From Pirellulales bacterium (GTDB lineage Bacteria; Planctomycetota; Planctomycetia; Pirellulales; S012-138): 33,231 nucleotides of DNA. Positions 22,381-33,028 of this stretch are shown piece by piece; position 1 is the stretch's first letter, and each line of letters opens with the position of its first letter. The DNA lies in assembly GCA_028066245.1 (NCBI GenBank), contig JALCBR010000056.1, positions 1 through 33,231 on the forward strand, read 5' to 3'. Made by a program: the position numbers and the translations under genes. A model generated the notes under the pieces. It saw nothing but the letters and a program-made list of their open reading frames with translations. It did not search any database and was not told where the DNA came from.

Positions 22381-24690
22381 TTACTCCGCAAAAAAGTAGA
22401 CGAAGGTGTCCCAGCTTTCGGGCTCGTAGTCAGTTGTAATGTAGCCGGAAGTGGAAACCAATTTCACGTCCGCCGATTCCCATTCGGTCTTGTCCGCGGC
22501 GACGGCCGCAATTTGAATGCGTCTGGCGTTAATGCGGAATTCATCGTGATACACGTTGACCTTTTGGCCAGGCTCAAGTTCGTAGATGAGTCCACCGCCG
22601 TCATCAGCGCCAAACCATTGCCAGGTACCTTCTGTGGTCATGGTTTCGTACTTGAGGACCACCGTGATCTTCTGCTCCGTGCGGTTTTCAAGTTGCAGGA
22701 AGCGGCGGAACTGACGTTTGAACGTGGTGGAGTCCATGCGTTCCGCCCGATCGTAGTCCGGCTGGGCGGCTTCAGCGTCGCCAGCGAACTCGCGGATCTG
22801 GCCACGGAGAAAGAAGAACTCCGGGTCGCTCTTGTCCAAGTGGATCGCTCGATCCATGTCAGCGATTGCGGAGGAATAGTCATCAACCTTGCTGTAGGCA
22901 TGACCACGATTGCGAAAGTAAACAGCGTTTTGATTGTCACGTTCAATCGCCGCGTCAAAGGCTACGATCGCGTTCTGATAGGCTTCACCTTGGAAGAACG
23001 TGATGCCAAGTTCGTTGGCCAGGTCGCTGTTGTCCGTGTGCCGGTCAGCCCCTTCGGCAAGGGTTTCTGCGGACGACTTGAGTTGGTCCTGTGTTCGCAG
23101 AAGTTGGCCCAGTGAGCGATAGAATTGCGGATCGGACTGGTCGTTCTCAATGACGGCCTTATAGAGTTGGACGGCCTTGTCCAGGTCTCCATTGCTTTCG
23201 TGGACGCTGCCGATCTTGAACAGGATATCCCAGCGACTGGGAGCTAGATCCAGCGCCGTGTCATACCGCTTCATCGCGTCTTCCAGGCGATCCAACCCCA
23301 TCAGCGCGTCGCCACAGTTGACGTGAAGCTGAGCCTGATCGCGTTCGATCTCGACCGCTCGCACCAACTCGGTGAAGTTGCCAAAGTTGCCGCCATCTTG
23401 TTCGGCGAGTTCCGCGGCACGTTCGAAGTCAACCAGAGCGTCAGCATAGTTCTCCGCCCAGTATTGTGTGATCCCGCGTTCGTTGTAGAGGTTGTAGAGC
23501 GTGTCCGATCCGTTGTCGCGACGGATGGCTTCGCTCATGTCGCGGAGCGATTCTTCAACGTTGTTCAATTCCCGGTGGACGATTCCGCGTCCTTGCCAGG
23601 CGTCAGTCAGTGTGGCGTCATGGCGAATGGCGTCAGAGAAATCACCCAACGCGATTTGGTACTCACCGTTTTGCATTTGTGCCCAGGCGCGATTGGAGTA
23701 AGCGTCGCCCAATTCGCCATCGAGACGCAAGGCGGCGTTGAAATCACTAATCGCCTGGTCGTACCGTCCCTCAAAGTAGTGCCGCAGTCCGCGCGTGTTG
23801 AAGTTGTCTGCGGTTTGCGGATCGACAAGTGGGAGGACGATTTCCAGGTAGTTGTGGATTTCTTTCTGATCGATGAACGATTCCACAGAGTTTGCAACAG
23901 ACGAGCCACTGGAGATCACGGCGATCACTTCGCCGTGGTCGTCCAAAACGGCGCCGCCGCTGTTGCCACGGTTCACGGCCGCCTGAGCTTCGACGACTCG
24001 TGCGAAGACGACTTGATTATCTGAGAGTTGGGATCGCTTCTTGTATACTTGCTTGACCACACCGGTGGTGTAGACCCACAACGCCTGGCTGCCTTCAGCC
24101 AATCCCGCCACCGTGTGGATGTGCGAACCTGGGCGAGGACTCTTGGTGGCGATCACAGGATCTTTCACGGTGTCCGGCACAGAGTTCAACTGAATGAGCG
24201 CCAGGTCCTTGGAGGAGTCGCTGTCGATGACGGTGCCACGGACGGGGGTAATGTTTCGCTCATAGTGAATGTGGTCATTGAGCAGTTCGCCGTCTTCTTC
24301 CGTCGGGAACCAGATCAGCACGTCATTACGTTTGCCAGTCCCGGATTCGATGACGTGATGGTTGGTCATGACCAGTTTGCGTTCTTTATCAACCACCCAG
24401 CCTGTTCCCATCGAAGCGCCTTCCCCGTCAGCGCCCGGCACTTTGATCCAGCAGGTGAAGTCCAAGGCCCGTTCGTAGATGTCCGTTTCAGCCATGCGAA
24501 CGCGGGCCGAGGCTGCCGTGATCTTGACCGGATCTCGCAGGTCATTGGCTTCTGCGATGGCGGAGAACCCACCAGAACTCAACATCGAGACGGCCAGCAG
24601 GATTCCGGCCGTCCATCGACGCCAACTGCTGCGGACCTTGCCGGCGGTGGTTTGGATTTGGTTCACTTGGGCAGGCAATGTGGTATTCAT
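22381..24690 (-). CDS. Exported trypsin-like serine protease with TPR array
   Basis: The start at 24690 gives 769 residues, with GGGGAA before the ATG. The frame is open to 25038, but the signal peptide (RRWTAGILLAVSMLSSGGFSA) sits at residues 24-45 of this start. The protease domain (about 75-270) has the HtrA-type triad: His112 (TNHHVIES), Asp162 (SKDLALIQL) and Ser244 (NRGNSGGAVLDD). No PDZ domain follows. Residues 290-660 are a run of roughly nine TPR-like units (GRYDQAISDFNAALRLD, GEYQIALGDFSDAI, DDYSSAIADMDRAIHLD). The C-terminal 110 residues form a beta-rich domain with many aromatics. This suggests a periplasmic or surface protease whose TPR array binds partner proteins. Targets are unknown. 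It stands alone between a terminator and the divergent ArsR operon. Confidence 0.92.
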   Translation of the reverse strand: MNTTLPAQVNQIQTTAGKVRSSWRRWTAGILLAVSMLSSGGFSAIAEANDLRDPVKITAASARVRMAETDIYERALDFTCWIKVPGADGEGASMGTGWVVDKERKLVMTNHHVIESGTGKRNDVLIWFPTEEDGELLNDHIHYERNITPVRGTVIDSDSSKDLALIQLNSVPDTVKDPVIATKSPRPGSHIHTVAGLAEGSQALWVYTTGVVKQVYKKRSQLSDNQVVFARVVEAQAAVNRGNSGGAVLDDHGEVIAVISSGSSVANSVESFIDQKEIHNYLEIVLPLVDPQTADNFNTRGLRHYFEGRYDQAISDFNAALRLDGELGDAYSNRAWAQMQNGEYQIALGDFSDAIRHDATLTDAWQGRGIVHRELNNVEESLRDMSEAIRRDNGSDTLYNLYNERGITQYWAENYADALVDFERAAELAEQDGGNFGNFTELVRAVEIERDQAQLHVNCGDALMGLDRLEDAMKRYDTALDLAPSRWDILFKIGSVHESNGDLDKAVQLYKAVIENDQSDPQFYRSLGQLLRTQDQLKSSAETLAEGADRHTDNSDLANELGITFFQGEAYQNAIVAFDAAIERDNQNAVYFRNRGHAYSKVDDYSSAIADMDRAIHLDKSDPEFFFLRGQIREFAGDAEAAQPDYDRAERMDSTTFKRQFRRFLQLENRTEQKITVVLKYETMTTEGTWQWFGADDGGGLIYELEPGQKVNVYHDEFRINARRIQIAAVAADKTEWESADVKLVSTSGYITTDYEPESWDTFVYFFAE

Positions 24691-24878
24691 GGGTTCCCCG
24701 TGGCTGGTCCCGCGACCGCGGCTTGAATCCTGCCTTGCCGCTGGGTCTGGTGTGTGGCGTTTTCGGGGCCGATCCTTGGCTGGGTCATCATTGGGAAATC
24801 CGCCTGCTAGCGGACAGATTGAGCCAAGAAAATGTAGTGCGCAGCCGCCCGAGCGAGCGGCAGCTCCCACAAGGCTAG

Positions 24879-25126: not shown

Positions 25127-25154
25127 TTGACCGACCAATGCCAAGAACTAAACT
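25127..25154 (+). promoter_or_regulatory. Probable sigma-70 promoter of the arsR-like operon
   Basis: TTGACC (25127-25132) matches five of six bases of the -35 consensus, and TAAACT (25149-25154) matches four of six of the -10, with a 16-base spacer. The expected start point is about 25161, inside the palindrome that follows, which is the usual layout of an ArsR-repressed promoter. Confidence 0.5.
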
Positions 25155-25164
25155 CCGATTCAAT

Positions 25165-25183
25165 TGAATTGTTGTTCAATTCA
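25165..25183 (+). promoter_or_regulatory. Probable ArsR-type operator
   Basis: TGAATTG-TTGTT-CAATTCA is a perfect 7-5-7 palindrome, and the preceding bases (TTCAATTGAA at 25160-25169) form a second overlapping one. ArsR/SmtB operators are AT-rich interrupted palindromes near the start point of their own gene. This one starts 67 bases before the arsR-like start codon and covers the predicted transcription start. Confidence 0.55.
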
Positions 25184-25231
25184 TGTCTTGAGCGACAGAG
25201 AAGATCCTGATTGGAGACCTGACAGTCAGCC

Positions 25232-25546
25232 ATGCCTGTCCCACTTCCGCAACTCCAGACAGAGCAAACTTCGTGTGTGGACTTGCTTAAAGCCCTGGCG
25301 GACGAAACACGATTGGCGGTTGTGCGACAGCTGATGGGCGGGCCCATGCGGGTGGGCGAAATCAACGCAGAACTCCAGGTCGAGCAGACGTTGCTCTCGC
25401 ACCACCTCAAAGTGCTACGCGATGTCGGACTGGTCAGTGCCGAGCGCGACGGCAAGGCCGTGATCTATCGCCTCGCGCCACATGTTGAAGCTGGGAAGCC
25501 GGGCCCAGGAATTAATCTGGGGTGCTGCTCTCTTTCGTTTGAGTGA
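25232..25546 (+). CDS. ArsR-family transcriptional repressor
   Basis: A 104-residue winged-helix regulator. The DNA-binding core is LLKALADETRLAVVRQLM (residues 18-35), the recognition part VEQTLLSHHLKVLRDVGLV (50-68) and a wing ERDGKAVIYRLAPH. The classical ELCVCDL metal motif is absent (here MRVGEINAEL). Instead the C-terminal tail has adjacent Cys98 and Cys99, and Cys15 lies near the N-terminus. Acidithiobacillus ferrooxidans ArsR binds As(III) through adjacent Cys95, Cys96 and Cys102, so Cys98-Cys99 may form a similar site, but a third tail Cys is missing. It should repress its own operon. It is followed 50 bases on by the aquaglyceroporin gene. Confidence 0.92.
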   Translation: MPVPLPQLQTEQTSCVDLLKALADETRLAVVRQLMGGPMRVGEINAELQVEQTLLSHHLKVLRDVGLVSAERDGKAVIYRLAPHVEAGKPGPGINLGCCSLSFE

Positions 25547-25596
25547 CTGATCCTGGCGAGAGTATATCGATCTGCAACTGAGAGACAGGAAAGCTG

Positions 25597-26445
25597 ATGG
25601 CCAACACCTCCCCCACGCTGCCTCGCAAGATCGGCGCCGAGATCGTCGGCACGTTTTTGCTGGTGTTTCTTGGTTGTGGAGCGGTGCACAGCGCCGTGCT
25701 GACGGATAGCTTGACGGGCTTGTTTCAAGTCGGGATTGTTTGGGGCGTCGCCATCATGATGGCCGTGTTCACGGTCGGCCGCATTAGCGGAGCGCACATC
25801 AACCCAGCCATCACCTTGGGAATGGCGACATGGCGGATGATGAAGTGGCGGGAAGTTCCCGGTTATGTCTTTGGGCAAATGTTGGGGGCTTTTCTGGCAG
25901 CTGCCGCATTGTTTGTGATCTTTCACGATGACTTGATGGCAAAGGAAGCGGACAAGGGCGTCTCCCGCGGGGAAGACAAGAGCATCATCACAGCCATGTG
26001 TTATGGAGAATACTTTCCCAACCCCAGTGGAATGGCAGGCCAGAAAGGCCCACTCACGGACGAACAATTCCAAGCCTGGTCCGATAGGCGCAATCACTTG
26101 GCGGCATTCCTGGCCGAGCTTCTCGGTACGGCGATTCTGGGTTTTGTGGTTGTCGGCGTGACTGATGCGAAAAATTCAGGATCGCCAGGCCAGATGGCGC
26201 CGGCCATTATCGGCATGACCGTTGCCGTATTGATTTGCGTACTTGCGCCAATAACGCAAGCTTGCTTCAATCCGGCGCGTGACTACGGGCCCCGCCTGTT
26301 CGCTTATGTCGGAGGATGGAAGGAAGCGGCCATTCCTGGCCCCAACGGGATCGGGATGGTCACCGTCTATCTGGTTGCGCCCATCCTCGGTGCGATCTGC
26401 GGAATGGGTTTGTACCACGGGCTCACCTGGCAGAAAGCTGAGTGA
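25597..26445 (+). CDS. Aquaglyceroporin (MIP family), possible metalloid channel
   Basis: A 282-residue channel with six hydrophobic segments. The two NPA boxes are INPAITLG (Asn69) and FNPARDYGPRLF (Asn225). Asp229 after the second box is the aquaglyceroporin mark (GlpF has NPARDFGPR), so it should pass glycerol and related neutral solutes, including As(OH)3. The loop between helices 3 and 4 (residues 112-165) is longer than in GlpF and rich in charged residues. AGGAA lies five bases before the ATG. The position directly after an ArsR gene recalls AqpS in the Sinorhizobium meliloti ars operon, where the channel takes the place of an arsenite pump. No arsC or glpK gene is present here. Confidence 0.93.
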   Translation: MANTSPTLPRKIGAEIVGTFLLVFLGCGAVHSAVLTDSLTGLFQVGIVWGVAIMMAVFTVGRISGAHINPAITLGMATWRMMKWREVPGYVFGQMLGAFLAAAALFVIFHDDLMAKEADKGVSRGEDKSIITAMCYGEYFPNPSGMAGQKGPLTDEQFQAWSDRRNHLAAFLAELLGTAILGFVVVGVTDAKNSGSPGQMAPAIIGMTVAVLICVLAPITQACFNPARDYGPRLFAYVGGWKEAAIPGPNGIGMVTVYLVAPILGAICGMGLYHGLTWQKAE

Positions 26446-26506
26446 TCTCTCCAAGAAAGTCAGAACAGAGTTCAGGAACAGATTTCCGAGGCAAAGGAGA
26501 AGCGAG

Positions 26507-27742
26507 ATGAAAATGTTTGCTGGGTTGGTCGCGGTTTCATGCGCCACGGTTTTTGGGCTCGGGTTGGCTGCTGCCGGGATTCAACCTGAACAACAACTTG
26601 ACACCTCTGCCGCGCGTTTGACTGAAAGAACGCCTGCGACGTCAAGCCACCTTGACCAAGATGTTGTTCATACCGCTGGAAAAGCCGTTCTTAGCGACCC
26701 GATCACACATGAGGTGGACTTTGTTGTTACAGTGACGCCGCCGTATGGATGCAAAGTGCTCAAGGTTTGGCTTCCTCTACCACCGACTAATGACGGTCAG
26801 GAAATTTCGGCCAGTGAGTTGACGACGTTTCCCATGGACGTGACTCCGCGAATTGCAACCGAACACGTCTACGAAAACACGTTTGCCTATTTCGAGTTCG
26901 AGAATCCCCAGGGCGCGCAAGTCATTCGCCACAAGTTCACGGCCAAGGTTTGGAATCAGAATTGGAACGTCGATCCCCAGCGGGTGCAAAATGTCGCGAA
27001 TTGGCCCAGCGAATTCACGCCCTATCTGCAACCACAAGCCCTCAAAGCGGCCAGCGAATTCGACGAAGTCCTTGGCACCCTAAGTGGAGGGCCCAATCTC
27101 GACGCAAGTGCCATGGATCAACTCCTGCGAGCGATGACATGGGTGGACAGCAATCTGACTTATGACCATCTCAATGCATCATTGACCGCGGACGCCAACC
27201 ACGCCTTTGAGCTTCGCCGAGGGCATTGCAGCGACTATCACGGACTGTGCGCCACCATGGGCCGAGCCATGGGTTATCCCGCGTGCGTGACTTACGGGCT
27301 TGCCCTCTATCCCAAGGCTTCTCCGTCTCATTGCAAGATGGATGTTTACTTGCCGCCATATGGTTGGGTCAGCTTTGATATTTCTGAAACACAAAAGATG
27401 GTTGCGGCGATTGCCGGGAACGATGAACTTTCCGGGCCGGAAAAGGAAGCGTACATGCAAGCTGCCCGCGATCGGCTCCATTCTGGATTCCGCGAAAACA
27501 GTTGGCTGCTGCTCACGCGTGGCACCAACTACGAACTTGCCCCCAAGGCGTCTAAGCCAGTCCGCCTAATACGCACGATTTATGCGGAAGCTGACGGCGT
27601 GGCGCTCCCGGAGCCTGACCCTTCTAACCATGAGCAGCAAGCTTTCGCCTGGATGACCGCGCACAAGTACACCGCGGACAAGGAGTTCGCCAAGCCGTTC
27701 AAGGAAATCAAATCCCTCAAGATTGGGCCCACCTCCAACTAA
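26507..27742 (+). CDS. Exported transglutaminase-like protein
   Basis: The ATG at 26507, with AAGGAG before it, gives 411 residues and a signal peptide (MKMFAGLVAVSCATVFGLG, cleavage about AAAG at residue 24). The frame is open from 26279, but that part overlaps the channel gene. The N-terminal half (60-190) is a beta-sandwich-like domain seen before many transglutaminase-like domains. The catalytic triad is Cys241 (RRGHCSDYHGLC), His275 (SHCKMDVY) and Asp291 (GWVSFDIS). The fold is the papain-like transglutaminase superfamily, which includes proteases and amidases. The substrate is unknown. It begins 61 bases after the channel gene stop and is followed at 15 bases by the CobW-like gene, so it is part of that operon. 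Confidence 0.9.
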   Translation: MKMFAGLVAVSCATVFGLGLAAAGIQPEQQLDTSAARLTERTPATSSHLDQDVVHTAGKAVLSDPITHEVDFVVTVTPPYGCKVLKVWLPLPPTNDGQEISASELTTFPMDVTPRIATEHVYENTFAYFEFENPQGAQVIRHKFTAKVWNQNWNVDPQRVQNVANWPSEFTPYLQPQALKAASEFDEVLGTLSGGPNLDASAMDQLLRAMTWVDSNLTYDHLNASLTADANHAFELRRGHCSDYHGLCATMGRAMGYPACVTYGLALYPKASPSHCKMDVYLPPYGWVSFDISETQKMVAAIAGNDELSGPEKEAYMQAARDRLHSGFRENSWLLLTRGTNYELAPKASKPVRLIRTIYAEADGVALPEPDPSNHEQQAFAWMTAHKYTADKEFAKPFKEIKSLKIGPTSN

Positions 27743-27757
27743 CTCCCGTTAACGCTT

Positions 27758-28852
27758 ATGCAGTTCATTCTCCTGGGTGGCTTTCTGGGCGCCGGCAAAA
27801 CCACAACTATCGCCCGGATTGCCGCCACGTATCAGCAGCAAGGGCGGAAGGTTGGCATTGTCACCAATGACCAGGCAGCCGATTTGGTCGATACGCATAC
27901 GCTGCGGTCGCAAGGCTTTGACGTTGGCGAAGTTGCCGGGGCGTGCTTCTGCTGCAACTTCAACGAACTGACCGATGTCGTTGCCAACTTGGAATCCGAG
28001 CAGCAGCCGGACGTGATCCTGGCGGAGCCGGTCGGCAGTTGTACCGATCTGGCGGCGACAGTGATCCAACCAATCGTGCGACTCCTCGGAGAGAAGTTTG
28101 AAGTTGCCCCGTATGGCGTCATCCTCAAGCCCTCTCACGGATTGCGGATCTTGCGAGACCGCGATGGTGGCGGATTCTCGCCCAAAGCTGCCTACATTTT
28201 TGATAAGCAACTCGAAGAGGCAGATTTCGTCATCATCAATCGCATTGACCAACTCGCCAAGACGGAAGTTGACGACCTGGAGAGATTGATTCAAGAGCGT
28301 CATCCTGATGTGCCCGTGTTGCGGACGTCAGCAAAATCTGGCGAGGGATTCGACGCCTTGTTGGAGATGCTTGCGCGGAAAGGCGCCTTTGGCCGTCGTA
28401 TTTTGGATATCGATTACGATGTCTACGCGGAAGGCGAAGCTGAACTTGGCTGGCTGAACAGCAATTTCCACGTCACCAGTGAATCAACGTTCGATCTGGA
28501 TCAATTGTTGCAAGAGATTGTCGGGCGGATGAAGAGCGACCTCGCAGCCGAAAAGGCCGAAACAGCCCACCTCAAGGTCATCGGTCTCTGGGAAGGATTC
28601 TACGGGGTGGCCAATCTGACCAGCAGCGACACGCCTGCGGAGTTGTCACTTCCTTCCCACTGTCAAACAAAAGAAGCGGACCTGGTGGTGAATGCGCGCG
28701 TGGCCATTGATCCGCAACGTTTGGAGCAGCTTGGTGCTGCGGCAGTCAATGCTGCAGCGAAATCGCAAGGCGCGGTTGCCCAAGAAAAAGTAGCTCGCTC
28801 ACTCCGTCCCGGGCGTCCCGTACCAACGCATCGTTTTGCCGAGCCACTTTGA
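27758..28852 (+). CDS. CobW/P47K (COG0523) GTPase, metal-chaperone type
   Basis: A 364-residue G3E GTPase. The Walker A motif is [10 protein letters not shown] (residues 7-16), the metal motif CxCC is Cys63-Phe-Cys65-Cys66 (GACFCCNF), the family signature EPVGSCTD lies at 90-97, and the NKxD-like guanine motif is NRID in [12 protein letters not shown]0523 members pass metals (Zn, Co, Ni, Fe) to target proteins. The C-terminal CobW_C domain is unusual: the His-rich stretch of zinc-linked members is missing, and residues 230-330 (a [15 protein letters not shown] segment) look different. It is the last gene of the operon, 15 bases after the transglutaminase-like gene, pointing to a metal or metalloid role for the whole unit. 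Confidence 0.92.
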
Positions 28853-28962: not shown

Positions 28963-29892
28963 TTACTCGACAACATCCACGGCCCGTACTCGTCGCACAA
29001 GCAAGAAGGTGCAAATCGTGCAAACAATCACCAGCACGCTGCAGGCTGCAATGGCATGATTCATCCCCACGACAAGCCCATCATTGCGTTCGGGAAATAC
29101 GCCGAAGAACATTCGCCCCGTGAACAGGATGTTGCTCCACAGATCCAGCAAGAGCCAATGTGAGTTGCCTGTTTCTCGTGCCATTTTCACAGCGATTGTC
29201 TTGAGCAGCACGAACAAGCAAGACCAGGTAATGGCGATGGGCGCCATTTTCTGCAAATAGGCGGAAATTGTCGTCAGCATCAGGCTGAGTGTAAAACACA
29301 TCACGGCTCCATAACCCAGCACCGCTGGGATGACTTGCCAGTTGGCCAACCAATATTCGCGCCCCGTAGTGAATGCCCCATATTCAAAGAACAGCAGCAA
29401 CGCCGGGAGGACCGTCAAAGCGGAGATCAATGTGCTAACGGCGAGTAACTTGCCAACAATATATTGGCCGCGATCGATCCTGCGCGACAGATAGAATGTC
29501 AGCGACCTCAAACGAAAGTCCGCTCCCACCAGTTGGCTACCGGAAAGCGCTAACAGCAGCATCACGACCACGCTTTGCTGGTTCATAAATTGGACATAGC
29601 CGCTTTCAACGCCGGGCGTTGGACTGACGTTGAACTGAAACCGGCTGAGAATCTGTTCGCTAAACTCAGGCAGATTGAGCTGAGCCAAGGCATAGATTAG
29701 TGACCAGTAGATCAAGAACATTGAGAAGCCCAACGCCAGCACTAGCCAATACAATTTGCGGCGGATCACTTGCAGCAAGGAAACGCGCACCATGGCCAAG
29801 CAACCAGCCCACCGGTTGCGCAACGTGCCGTGCCAGCCATGGTAGCGAGCTAGGTCAATACCACTGGATTGTTCTGATGGTGAGAGGGACAT
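28963..29892 (-). CDS. ABC-2 type exporter permease
   Basis: A 309-residue integral membrane protein with six hydrophobic segments: about 46-70, 105-127, 146-168, 183-205, 215-235 and 283-302. The pattern of a cytoplasmic N-terminus, one helix, a large external loop (71-105, with FQFNVSPTPGVESGYV) and then a helix bundle fits ABC-2 membrane domains such as those with an NosY-like layout. Its start lies 23 bases after the stop of the ATPase gene on the same strand, so the two form one exporter. The substrate is unknown. The convergent gene downstream is the CobW-like gene, 110 bases away. Confidence 0.85.
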   Translation of the reverse strand: MSLSPSEQSSGIDLARYHGWHGTLRNRWAGCLAMVRVSLLQVIRRKLYWLVLALGFSMFLIYWSLIYALAQLNLPEFSEQILSRFQFNVSPTPGVESGYVQFMNQQSVVVMLLLALSGSQLVGADFRLRSLTFYLSRRIDRGQYIVGKLLAVSTLISALTVLPALLLFFEYGAFTTGREYWLANWQVIPAVLGYGAVMCFTLSLMLTTISAYLQKMAPIAITWSCLFVLLKTIAVKMARETGNSHWLLLDLWSNILFTGRMFFGVFPERNDGLVVGMNHAIAACSVLVIVCTICTFLLVRRVRAVDVVE

Positions 29893-29915
29893 CCTAGATT
29901 AACTCGGTCTTATCG

Positions 29916-31016
29916 CTAAGCACTGTCATGGGAGTTGGATTCACCAAGTTCAAGCGCAGGTGAAGGTAAACCACGGAATTGATCCAGAGAATCATGCGCT
30001 GTAACACGGAGGAATAGATCGTGCAGGTTCTCCTCGACCGGCTTGAGCCGCCGGAGTATGATCCCGCTTTCTTTGGCCATTTGAAAGAACGAATGGGTGG
30101 CCCAATCTCGTTCAACCGTCACGCGGATGGTGTTGGCGTTGCGACCGCGCAAATTCCTGCTGCCTTGGATGCTTGGCGAGCTGTTCTCCGATTTTGTGTC
30201 GGTTTCGGGGTCTTGCGTCGCATGGAGACTGTTGGGGGAATTGGAGCGAGTTGACAACGTGGAGATTTCCGTTCCGGCTCGTTTCAGCGCTCGCACAAAC
30301 TCCGTTCCGTCGCCGTCCCACATCAAGTCATAGCACCGCGACGTTGCCTGTTTCAGATTGTCCATCTTGCCGGACAGGATGACCGTACCTTCGCGGAGCA
30401 CAACAATCTGCTCGCAAATCCGCTCAACATCTCCAAGCAGATGGGTGCAGAGAATGACGCTCTTACCGGTTTCTGCGATCAAGTCCTCCACGGTTCGCAG
30501 CATCGCTGTGCGCCCGCTGGGGTCGAGGCCGTTGGTGGGCTCATCGAGCAAAAGCAGTTGGGGATCATGCACCAACGCCGCGGCGAGCTTCAATCGTTGA
30601 AGGTTTCCCGATGAATACTCATCCAACCGCCTGTAGCGCAGTTCTCCTAGGCCAACGTAGTTCAGCACTTCGTGTGCGCGCCGCCGGGCTTCGCGATGGG
30701 GCATGCCATAAAGATCTCCGGAGAGCGTGACAAATTCCGCACCTTTGAGCAGCGGAACGGTCGCCGTAATCTCCGGCATATAGCCGACGAGGCCGCGAAC
30801 TCGAGCGGTCTCGTGCAAAATGCTGAGGTCGAGGATTGAGCCATCGCCAGCGTCCGGTCGGAGCAGGCCGAGCAGCACTTTGAGCAACGTGCTCTTGCCG
30901 GCTCCGTTGTTTCCCACCAATCCAATGGCGCCGGGTTCCAGTCGAAGCGAGACATCGCGCAACGCCTGGACGCGGCCGTAGCTCTTGGCAAGATTGTGTA
31001 ACTCAAGAAACGCCAT
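29916..31016 (-). CDS. ABC transporter ATP-binding protein
   Basis: The start at 31016 gives 366 residues (the frame opens at 31133 with non-conserved residues). The Walker A motif is GNNGAGKST (35-43), the Q-loop region is YMPEITATVPLL, the signature is YSSGNLQR (134-141) in place of LSGGQ, Walker B is LLLLDEPTNGLD (154-165) and the H-loop is His192. After the nucleotide-binding domain comes a C-terminal extension of about 130 residues with a Ser/Asn/Thr-rich low-complexity segment (SNSPNSLHATQDPETDTKSE) and a final alpha/beta part. It is the first gene of the pair with the ABC-2 permease. ABC-2 exporters move lipids, antibiotics or polysaccharides, or act in membrane protein assembly. Confidence 0.9.
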   Translation of the reverse strand: MAFLELHNLAKSYGRVQALRDVSLRLEPGAIGLVGNNGAGKSTLLKVLLGLLRPDAGDGSILDLSILHETARVRGLVGYMPEITATVPLLKGAEFVTLSGDLYGMPHREARRRAHEVLNYVGLGELRYRRLDEYSSGNLQRLKLAAALVHDPQLLLLDEPTNGLDPSGRTAMLRTVEDLIAETGKSVILCTHLLGDVERICEQIVVLREGTVILSGKMDNLKQATSRCYDLMWDGDGTEFVRALKRAGTEISTLSTRSNSPNSLHATQDPETDTKSENSSPSIQGSRNLRGRNANTIRVTVERDWATHSFFQMAKESGIILRRLKPVEENLHDLFLRVTAHDSLDQFRGLPSPALELGESNSHDSA

Positions 31017-31447
31017 CAGCTTGATCGATCTTCCCGACCTGGCTAAACGACCGTCGTGAGCGGATTCGCCTGCGCTGATTCGGGTGCAAGGATGGGTGAA
31101 TTCTTCGGAACAGCGTAAGTTTGGGCGATCCAATCCCCTGCGATGCGTGAGATTCGCCCAGTGAGTGCGATTATTGCCGCGCGAGTAAAATTAGGGAAGT
31201 AACGGGATCTGGCGGTAGTTCCAACACTTTGTGTGCGATAGTCACCGGCGGGACTCCGACCGATGTGAGTGCCGACGGATTTGATCCCAACTGGGAACTT
31301 TTGCCGTGACCGAACGTCGAATGCCGATAGACTAGCCGCGGTCATCCAGTCCGAAATGCGCAGCTCTTTCGAAGCACATGGGAATTTCGCCAGCCCCATT
31401 GAAGACAACGGGTTGTGAATTGAACACATGACAGCAGGACTCAAGCC
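31017..31447. other. Intergenic stretch between divergent ABC exporter and DUF2330 genes
   Basis: This 431-base stretch should hold two divergent promoters. I see no convincing -35/-10 pair, hairpin or repeat in it, and the open frames that cross it (for example 31043-31633 on the - strand) read as non-coding. Confidence 0.45.
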
Positions 31448-33028
31448 ATGAACTCTATTCGCCGACCGATCCCAGCTAAAGAAACCAGAGCCAAAAAAAG
31501 TATGGTTTCCCGGAAGTTGTTCCGGGCCATTGGTCTGGGAGTGATCGGAGTTGTCGTTTGTCTCCCAATCGCAGGTGATCATTTTGCAACGGATTCCAAA
31601 GCTGACCCTTGCGGTATGGTGCCGCCGATTCAAATGAATGATGCTGGCGCCCTTGCCCGAATTGGCCTGCAGCAGACCTATGTCTTCTACAAGGATGGTG
31701 TCGAATCATTCGTGATTCGCCCTGGCTTTGTTGGCAAAGTTGAAGAGTTTGGCATGCTGATTCCTTTCCCAACTCCGCCTGCGTTGCGGAAGGTGGGTGA
31801 TGAGATTTTTCCGCACATCGAACGGGCGATTGATCCTCCCGAAATCACCGTCTATGCAGGCATCGGACTGCAAAAGAATGGGATGGTGCTCGGCGCCGCT
31901 ATGCAGGGCATGCGGCAAGACAACTTCAAATTAGAAGTCAACGAAGTGCGCGTGGTCAATCAGGAAGCCGTCGGCATGTATGAGGTGGCCGTCTTGGAGG
32001 CCGGCAGCACGGCAGCACTGAAAGGCTGGATGCATGACCATCAGTACCGTTTTCCCGAAGGCATGGAAGCGTGCTGTGACGACTATGTGCAGGATGAATG
32101 GTGCTTTGTGGCGGTGAAGACGCGCGTGGGCCCCAAGAGGAACGTCGACCCTCGCCCTGGAATGCGGAATGCCAATCCTGGTTTGCCAGCGGGGGCATCC
32201 TTTGACGGACATGTTCAGGCGATGGGGTTCCGTTTTCACACGGATGAACTTGTCGTTCCCATGCGATTGTCCGCCTTTAACGCCGGCGAACTTCGCAACA
32301 TTGTCTATATCCTCTCGGATGGTCCGCGAAAGATCCGCGCTATCCCCGAAGAGTACGTTGTGCGGCAGATCGGTGGTAAGCAACTCACCCAAAACGTTAC
32401 TGAACTTCTGCCGATTCGCGTTGTCGGAGGAACGATCAACGACATTCCGGAGTACCGCAAGCAATCCCTACCGCAAGAACGCAATCCGGCGCCACATAAC
32501 GGTTTGGCCAAAGATCTCTTCGCCAGCGATCTTTTGACCGCCGCAACGGGAACGCTTTCGCATTCGCATGAAGAGAAAGAGAAAATGCTGCTCCGCATTG
32601 GAGAAAGCCTTCAACTCCGTGGTCAGGAAATTGACCAGGTCAACTATCAGGCCCTGGCGGAAAACCGAAAAGCCAACTTGACGCATGCGCTGGCAGACCT
32701 GAATGAAATGACGCTGACGGTCGTTGATGGCGATTTCCCCCGCGAAGTTCTGGGTGCAACAAACCTGACCTTTGCCGAGTATTCGATGCCATCCCGTCGC
32801 AACAATCCGGAGAGCTATAGCGTGCCTCAACACGCTCCGCGCGGAATGGACCCTCAAGGCAAACTCTATCGCGGTGATTTGCAAGCCCTGCTCCGCAAGT
32901 CGGACCAACCCCGGAGCGACTCATCTCCATGGACCACGGTCACTGGAGCGGTGCTCGGTTTGTTGGCGGGCGGGCTCATCTTCGCCCGCAGCGTGAACCG
33001 GCGTCGATCGCTTCGCTTGCGGGACTAG
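31448..33028 (+). CDS. DUF2330 domain protein, exported and membrane-anchored
   Basis: A 526-residue protein. The first ATG has AGGA eight bases upstream; an ATG at 31502 (MVSRK) is an alternative start. A hydrophobic signal segment (FRAIGLGVIGVVVCLPIAG, residues 25-43) precedes the mature part beginning at DPCGMVPPIQ, the conserved Cys-Gly of the family. The DUF2330 signature follows: YVFYKDGVESFVIRPGFVG, FGMLIPFPTPPAL and a set of beta strands up to about residue 330. A Pro/Asn-rich segment leads to a single C-terminal helix (TVTGAVLGLLAGGLIFA) and a basic end (RRRSLRLRD), so the protein is anchored with the bulk outside the cytoplasm. The function of DUF2330 is unknown. A repeat copy begins right at the stop codon. 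Confidence 0.9.
   Translation: MNSIRRPIPAKETRAKKSMVSRKLFRAIGLGVIGVVVCLPIAGDHFATDSKADPCGMVPPIQMNDAGALARIGLQQTYVFYKDGVESFVIRPGFVGKVEEFGMLIPFPTPPALRKVGDEIFPHIERAIDPPEITVYAGIGLQKNGMVLGAAMQGMRQDNFKLEVNEVRVVNQEAVGMYEVAVLEAGSTAALKGWMHDHQYRFPEGMEACCDDYVQDEWCFVAVKTRVGPKRNVDPRPGMRNANPGLPAGASFDGHVQAMGFRFHTDELVVPMRLSAFNAGELRNIVYILSDGPRKIRAIPEEYVVRQIGGKQLTQNVTELLPIRVVGGTINDIPEYRKQSLPQERNPAPHNGLAKDLFASDLLTAATGTLSHSHEEKEKMLLRIGESLQLRGQEIDQVNYQALAENRKANLTHALADLNEMTLTVVDGDFPREVLGATNLTFAEYSMPSRRNNPESYSVPQHAPRGMDPQGKLYRGDLQALLRKSDQPRSDSSPWTTVTGAVLGLLAGGLIFARSVNRRRSLRLRD

Follow-up and report, generated by a model that had tools for sequence, protein, structure and literature searches.

The 33,231-nucleotide stretch analysed here (positions 1 to 33,231 of contig JALCBR010000056.1, assembly GCA_028066245.1, from a Pirellulales bacterium of the Planctomycetota; hereafter the window) carries on its forward strand a run of four genes, encoding in order an ArsR-like repressor, an aquaglyceroporin of the MIP family, a transglutaminase/papain-fold protein (TG) and a COG0523 (G3E) GTPase. 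The initial annotation, made from the DNA letters alone, had described four same-strand genes with gaps of 50, 61 and 15 bases behind a promoter with a palindrome. Strand, order and intergenic gaps are borne out by the open reading frame (ORF) coordinates, and the gene identities by Pfam (E-values of 1.8e-14 for HTH_5, 3.2e-46 for MIP, 2e-15 for Transglut_core and 1.9e-22 for cobW). Judged from sequence comparison, the genes make up a single operon, one instance of a conserved and recurrent MIP-TG-GTPase module, which on balance appears to handle arsenicals, be it arsenite and/or methylated or sugar-linked arsenic. This interpretation draws on the conservation of the module, its gene order, gene fusion, the operator sequence, the cysteines of the repressor and, in relatives, the neighbouring genes for ArsM (arsenic methyltransferase), ArsS and arsenosugar glycosyltransferases. 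The coordinates of the features are collected in Table 1.

Table 1. Features of the four-gene locus, its flanks, and an arsenic gene pair elsewhere in the same genome
Feature	Coordinates	Strand	Characteristics
arsR-like repressor gene	25232..25546	+	104 aa; C15, C98-C99; PF01022 (HTH_5) and NF033788
MIP channel (GlpF-like)	25597..26445	+	282 aa; filter W-I-A-R; PF00230; TIGR00861 above cut-off
TG, transglutaminase/papain-fold, probably exported	26507..27742	+	411 aa; PF01841
TG residues			C241-H275-D291 probable triad; C276, H240, H245 also invariant; from invariant motifs and 3isr alignment
COG0523 (G3E) GTPase	27758..28852	+	364 aa; G3E P-loop motif and CFCC; PF02492 only
Probable promoter of operon	25127..25154	+	TTGACC-16-TAAACT; consensus scan
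Probable ArsR operator	25158..25179	+	ATTCAATTGAAT-N5-TTCAA; just 3' of -10 box; genome-unique, conserved position
Trypsin-like protease with TPR repeats	22384-24693
ABC transporter pair	28966-31019
DUF2330 protein	31448-33025
ArsM-like/ArsS pair of the same genome	L318:8017-10293 (contig C116)		module operator not found upstream

Control region and gene products

The regulator is an ArsR/SmtB winged-helix protein with three conserved cysteines. All 17 ArsR-like sequences compared, from 15 distinct genomes, carry a helix-1 cysteine (C15 in the window) and a C-terminal Gly-Cys-Cys (window C98 and C99); these are the ArsR proteins encoded near module genes, a few of which adjoin TG or the GTPase without a MIP. 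The three thiols would form one site, and their arrangement may represent a further type of ArsR site.

A sigma-70-like pair of promoter boxes begins at 25127, and the palindrome AATTGAA-6-TTCAATT, accompanied by further, overlapping arms, follows directly behind the -10 box. An inverted repeat of that quality was reached by 100 of 500 shuffles; judged alone, the palindrome is not significant, and it gains weight only from its position across species and its uniqueness within the genome. The element ATTCAATTGAAT-N5-TTCA is matched exactly only once in the host genome (4.94 Mb), at the arsR promoter, the next-best site overlapping it on the opposite strand with one mismatch and all others having three mismatches. 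In 2.1 Mb of sequence from the loci compared, TTCAATTGAA was found at three places (the window, L148 and L154), each of them 5' of an arsR with the module-type cysteines, and the fronts of the L148 and L154 genes read TTGACA, TAAAAT and then TTCAATTGAA, the same layout as in the window. The palindrome seen by the initial annotation is real, and its element is conserved 5' of the orthologous arsR in two other genomes. The position and conservation of the operator are established by sequence, and ArsR would be the protein that represses through it. A regulon reaching beyond the operon was rejected, as no second good operator was found in the host genome and none lies upstream of its ArsM-like gene.

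In the channel, alignment to GlpF gives a selectivity filter of W-I/V-A/S-R in all 55 aligned members of the subfamily (W-I-A-R in 47 and W-V-A-R in 5). The filter of GlpF itself is W-G-F-R, and that of the glpK-adjacent MIPs of the same order, which constitute a separate subfamily, is W-G-Y-R. The window MIP has neither the adjacent glpK nor the W-G-F/Y-R filter of a glycerol facilitator. Its filter, W-I-A-R, is compatible with the passage of trivalent arsenic (As(III)), but it tells more strongly against an ordinary glycerol facilitator than in favour of arsenite.

TG would be exported, as suggested by its hydrophobic N terminus. Its AlphaFold2 model (pLDDT 84) comprises a beta domain and a transglutaminase core, for which the nearest solved fold is 3isr; C241, H275 and D291 are invariant and align with the Cys-His-Asp triad of 3isr, placing TG within the superfamily. 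Its invariant motifs are GHCSDYH and SPxHC, with C276, H240 and H245 unchanged throughout. The initial annotation named the GTPase as COG0523 and noted that such GTPases with CxCC handle metals; the CxCC motif (CFCC; C63, C65 and C66) and the G3E P-loop motif, both marks of the family, proved invariant in 20 relatives, as did a further cysteine, C95. Its model (pLDDT 91) lies nearest to YjiA, followed by HypB and UreG. In its C-terminal part, Pfam gave no hit to the CobW_C domain of classic members, and by NCBIfam it falls short of the equivalog cut-offs for CobW (40 vs 332 bits) and ZigA (41 vs 600 bits).

Recurrence of the module and its arsenic neighbours

The initial annotation had proposed that co-occurrence of the four genes be sought in other planctomycete genomes, and such co-occurrence was found. 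With the TG protein alone as bait, 117 related genomes were searched, and the GTDB genome collection was then scanned with the TG alignment, giving at least 80 named loci; the locus counts that follow are among the matches listed. Of these 80 loci, 39 have a MIP of the same subfamily as the window's no more than 1.5 kb from TG and invariably on its strand, 28 have the GTPase close by, and 11 have an ArsR within 3 kb; where at least 1.5 kb is available on both sides of TG, the MIP is linked in 28 of 59. Besides the host, 17 of the 117 related genomes have a clear TG orthologue (48 to 59% identity), and G096 has a broken copy. TG occurs in 11 of the 16 genomes with the module MIP vs 8 of the 101 without it (Fisher 2.6e-7, a test that ignores shared descent).

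The full order of the window, ArsR-MIP-TG-GTPase on one strand, is repeated in L154, L194 and L203, the last with a 4-base overlap at every junction, and rearranged versions include MIP-GTPase-TG, TG-MIP-GTPase, a divergent GTPase and a divergent ArsR. In two different genomes, the MIP and the GTPase are fused into a single ORF (L159:306-2336 and L161:5782-7824). A quick tree of TG requires 15 or more changes in the MIP link, which the GTPase link tracks (6.7 vs 0.1 independent pairs, median p 0.016). Beyond the Planctomycetota, the MIP-TG module is found in Armatimonadota (L226/L317, L227, L314, L316 and L315, the TG being partial on the L315 contig) and in one verrucomicrobial genome of the Chthoniobacterales; the idea that Verrucomicrobiota might be a second large reservoir was rejected, with 1 of 289 genomes.

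In four lineages, the module adjoins ArsM, ArsS or arsenosugar glycosyltransferase genes. The most extensive run, in L161, reads in one direction ArsM-like, ArsS, the MIP::GTPase fusion, TG and a TIGR04282::TIGR04283 arsenosugar glycosyltransferase fusion, its ArsS (TIGR04167, arsenosugar radical-SAM) scoring 445 bits vs a cut-off of 300. The order is TG-MIP-ArsS in L221, ArsM-MIP-TG-TIGR04283 in L222, and ArsM-MIP-TG-GTPase in L205, where the ArsM is of the arsenosugar type (395 bits, cut-off 400). The lineages with such adjacency are outlying ones. The host genome has an ArsS above the cut-off on another contig, directly beside an ArsM-like gene that scores below the curated cut-offs. In the Armatimonadota, two DGC-domain genes lie 5' of the MIP in L227, L315 and L316, and the run DGC-DGC-MIP-TG of L316 is headed by a MerR with a fused thioredoxin domain similar to the MTH895/ArsE family, though scoring below its cut-off (L316:4953-5624); a literature search for a link between the DGC domain and arsenic found nothing. 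Mutual exclusion between the module and Acr3 was considered and gave no signal (3 of 16 vs 24 of 101 genomes), and Acr3 was not found in the host genome.

Several other arrangements were noted along the way. Four loci of one genus (L036, L041, L042 and L051) have the TG orthologue in a different conserved gene run, with a MIP-GTPase pair elsewhere in the genome. In L144:7330-9247 and L145:1131-3519, a module-type MIP (W-I-S-R) is followed by a protein of another family with a transglutaminase-like core, as judged by eye, and it is possible that the partner enzyme has been replaced there. A MIP sits between a PadR::GcvH/lipoyl-domain fusion and a double DGC-domain protein in L251:3065-6043, and a free lipoyl-domain protein sits between MIP and TG in L227. 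The neighbours of the GTPase outside the module (by eye, a DegT aminotransferase, SurE and a dehydrogenase) share no common theme. The genes flanking the operon in the window did not reappear next to the module at any other locus listed.

The arsenical reading and its alternatives

Were the module to handle arsenicals, ArsR would, in their absence, occupy the ATTCAATTGAAT operator behind the -10 box and block the promoter, and a trivalent arsenical bound via C15 and C98/C99 would release it. The W-I-A-R aquaglyceroporin would then provide an exit, or a bidirectional path, for neutral As(OH)3 or a small organoarsenical down its gradient, while the cytoplasmic CxCC GTPase at the inner mouth of the channel might serve as a thiol carrier or metallochaperone, and the exported thiol enzyme TG might work outside, with either the solute or something at the surface as its target. 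The substrate of the MIP and the roles of TG and the GTPase are what we infer, the last two being the weakest steps. E. coli GlpF and mammalian aquaglyceroporins conduct As(III), and aquaglyceroporin transport of methylarsonous acid is reported (PMC1440775); MIPs of ars operons are always the sole transporter of their operon (PMC4435449). A bolder version, which we hold to be quite doubtful, is a GTPase-coupled aquaglyceroporin in which the CxCC motif would bind arsenical thiolates and deliver them to, or gate, the MIP, the periplasmic thiol enzyme would complete the step, and ArsR would sense through a three-cysteine site of a further type; the MIP, otherwise a passive channel, would through such coupling become a directional exporter of arsenite or organoarsenicals.

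Several observations weigh against the arsenical reading. The window locus itself has no ArsM, ArsS or arsenosugar glycosyltransferase gene, arsR being the sole arsenic gene there. The combination of C15 with C98-C99 matches none of the proven site layouts that PMC11868830 lists for As(III)-responsive ArsRs (C32-34-37, C95-96-102, C15-16-55 and C41-80-82). Plant NIPI channels share the W-I/V-A/G-R filter, and in one yeast study they let no As(III) through (PMC2442057); the filter is therefore no proof of arsenite passage. TG stands without a MIP in about half of the loci listed, and the GTPase orthologue is widespread outside the module and away from any arsenic context; because it is so common in the order, the job of the GTPase is probably wider than the module, or it was recruited into it. 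An ArsM above the cut-off is present in only 10 of 36 module genomes, and ArsS is only weakly enriched in genomes with the module (p 0.03 to 0.2), on which grounds a strict dependence of the module on ArsM or ArsS was rejected.

The same genes bear on the proposal that the module is a dedicated accessory of arsenosugar or organoarsenical biosynthesis, in which the MIP would pass a methylated or sugar-linked arsenical or its glycerol-like part, and TG and the GTPase would perform biosynthetic or maturation steps. We consider this unlikely, although ArsM, ArsS and TIGR04282/04283 genes are directly adjacent in L161, L221, L222 and L205 and the host genome has its own ArsM-like/ArsS pair: ArsM at or above the threshold used is lacking in 26 of 36 module genomes, many of them incomplete, and ArsS is missing from 11 of the 16 MIP genomes of the order. 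The module therefore seems to do without that pathway in most of its hosts. Rather unlikely, too, is the view that the MIP is simply the cell's everyday facilitator, passing glycerol or a similar small polar molecule such as urea or lactate, in which case ArsR would respond to a different signal and TG and the GTPase would be incidental. Linkage to ArsM, ArsS and three-cysteine ArsRs would be unexpected for glycerol uptake, no module MIP turned up next to glpK, and the reading was rejected on the ground that glpK-linked MIPs of the order (W-G-Y-R) are another subfamily. In its favour, the channel lies on the GlpF side (NPARD motif; best PDB match GlpF), a glycerol kinase gene (glpK) is present elsewhere in the genome, and one plant channel from the NIPI class, whose filter is the same, carries lactic acid (PMC2442057); the window MIP may also contribute to glycerol entry on the side, as it is the sole MIP found in the genome. 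The verdict of the initial annotation that this is not a glp operon is accordingly reinforced by the pore filter and tempered by the want of a second MIP.

A transition-metal (e.g., zinc) homeostasis unit, in which the ArsR/SmtB protein would sense the metal and the GTPase would load a metalloenzyme (TG, it may be, or some partner in the cytoplasm), appears improbable. COG0523 proteins are metal chaperones, a subset of which is tied to zinc (PMC2770081), and the folds nearest to the GTPase are those of YjiA, HypB and UreG; against this, MIP channels carry neutral solutes rather than metal cations, the CobW, ZigA and HypB equivalog scores are far below their cut-offs, the regulators have a three-thiol pattern, and the outgroup neighbours of the module are arsenic genes, not metal transporters. 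No recurrent metal transporter turned up beside the module, save for one ZIP-like protein, recognised by eye only, after MIP-GTPase in L123. The metalloid- or metal-responsive unit proposed by the initial annotation is supported in part, as a recurrent four-gene unit with links to arsenic genes, its general transition-metal part having little positive support. That the four genes are neighbours by chance or shared drift, with separate functions, is very improbable: TG and the GTPase are each also found alone, but the idea is contradicted by the return of the set in three phyla in altered orders, by the 4-base overlaps and the gene fusion, and by links that change together on the tree.

Few genetic layouts for arsenic handling have been described so far. 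If the arsenical reading is right, a module common to Planctomycetota and Armatimonadota, embedded in some lineages among arsenosugar genes, suggests that bacteria move or finish organic arsenic by a step not yet described. A COG0523 subfamily and a transglutaminase-like family would likewise gain a concrete set of partners.

Relation to described systems

The initial annotation knew of no described system with this gene set, and none was found in the open literature searched, subscription papers lying mostly outside the search. The likeness it drew to the AqpS type of arsenite resistance, that of the ars operon of Sinorhizobium meliloti, holds for the ArsR-MIP core: arsR is beside the MIP on one strand, the MIP is the sole transporter, and no ArsB or Acr3 is adjacent. 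The S. meliloti operon includes arsC and arsH. Domain scans found neither among the four genes or their neighbours; TG and the COG0523 GTPase stand in their stead, in other genomes too. The lack of arsC, arsB and glpK noted by the initial annotation was likewise upheld beside the four genes by ORF, Pfam and NCBIfam scans of the locus.

The arsenosugar biosynthesis genes (ArsM, ArsS TIGR04167, TIGR04282/TIGR04283) share a gene run with the module in some relatives; none is at the window locus, the host pair is on another contig, and most module genomes seem to be without them. With the ArsR sensors of As(III) (R773 type, AfArsR, CgArsR1 and ArArsR) and of MAs(III) (SpArsR), the window ArsR has in common the HTH_5 fold and three conserved cysteines, but it differs in combining one helix-1 cysteine with a C-terminal vicinal pair, an arrangement not listed in PMC11868830. 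The P-loop, the CxCC motif and a YjiA/HypB/UreG-like domain tie the GTPase to the COG0523/G3E proteins (CobW, YjiA, ZigA/ZNG1 and the nitrile hydratase activator), from which it is set apart by the missing CobW_C hit and by its linkage or fusion to a MIP. TG shares with 3isr, a putative cysteine protease of Cytophaga hutchinsonii, the same two-part fold of a beta domain and a Cys-His-Asp transglutaminase core, the periplasmic domain of TgpA being grouped alongside; identity to 3isr is 12%, and TG differs in its invariant GHCSDYH and SPxHC motifs with an extra Cys and His.

As a whole, the proposed arrangement resembles ArsD/ArsA serving ArsB, in that a cytosolic nucleotide-dependent thiol carrier would feed a membrane exit. 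The likeness would be one of analogy and not of descent: the two are not homologous as systems, a GTPase and a MIP here corresponding to an ATPase and ArsB there, with energy coupling hypothetical. The pairing of ArsR with a MIP has been described before; what is new is that TG and the GTPase join them, that MIP and GTPase can be fused, and that the set is tied to arsenosugar genes.

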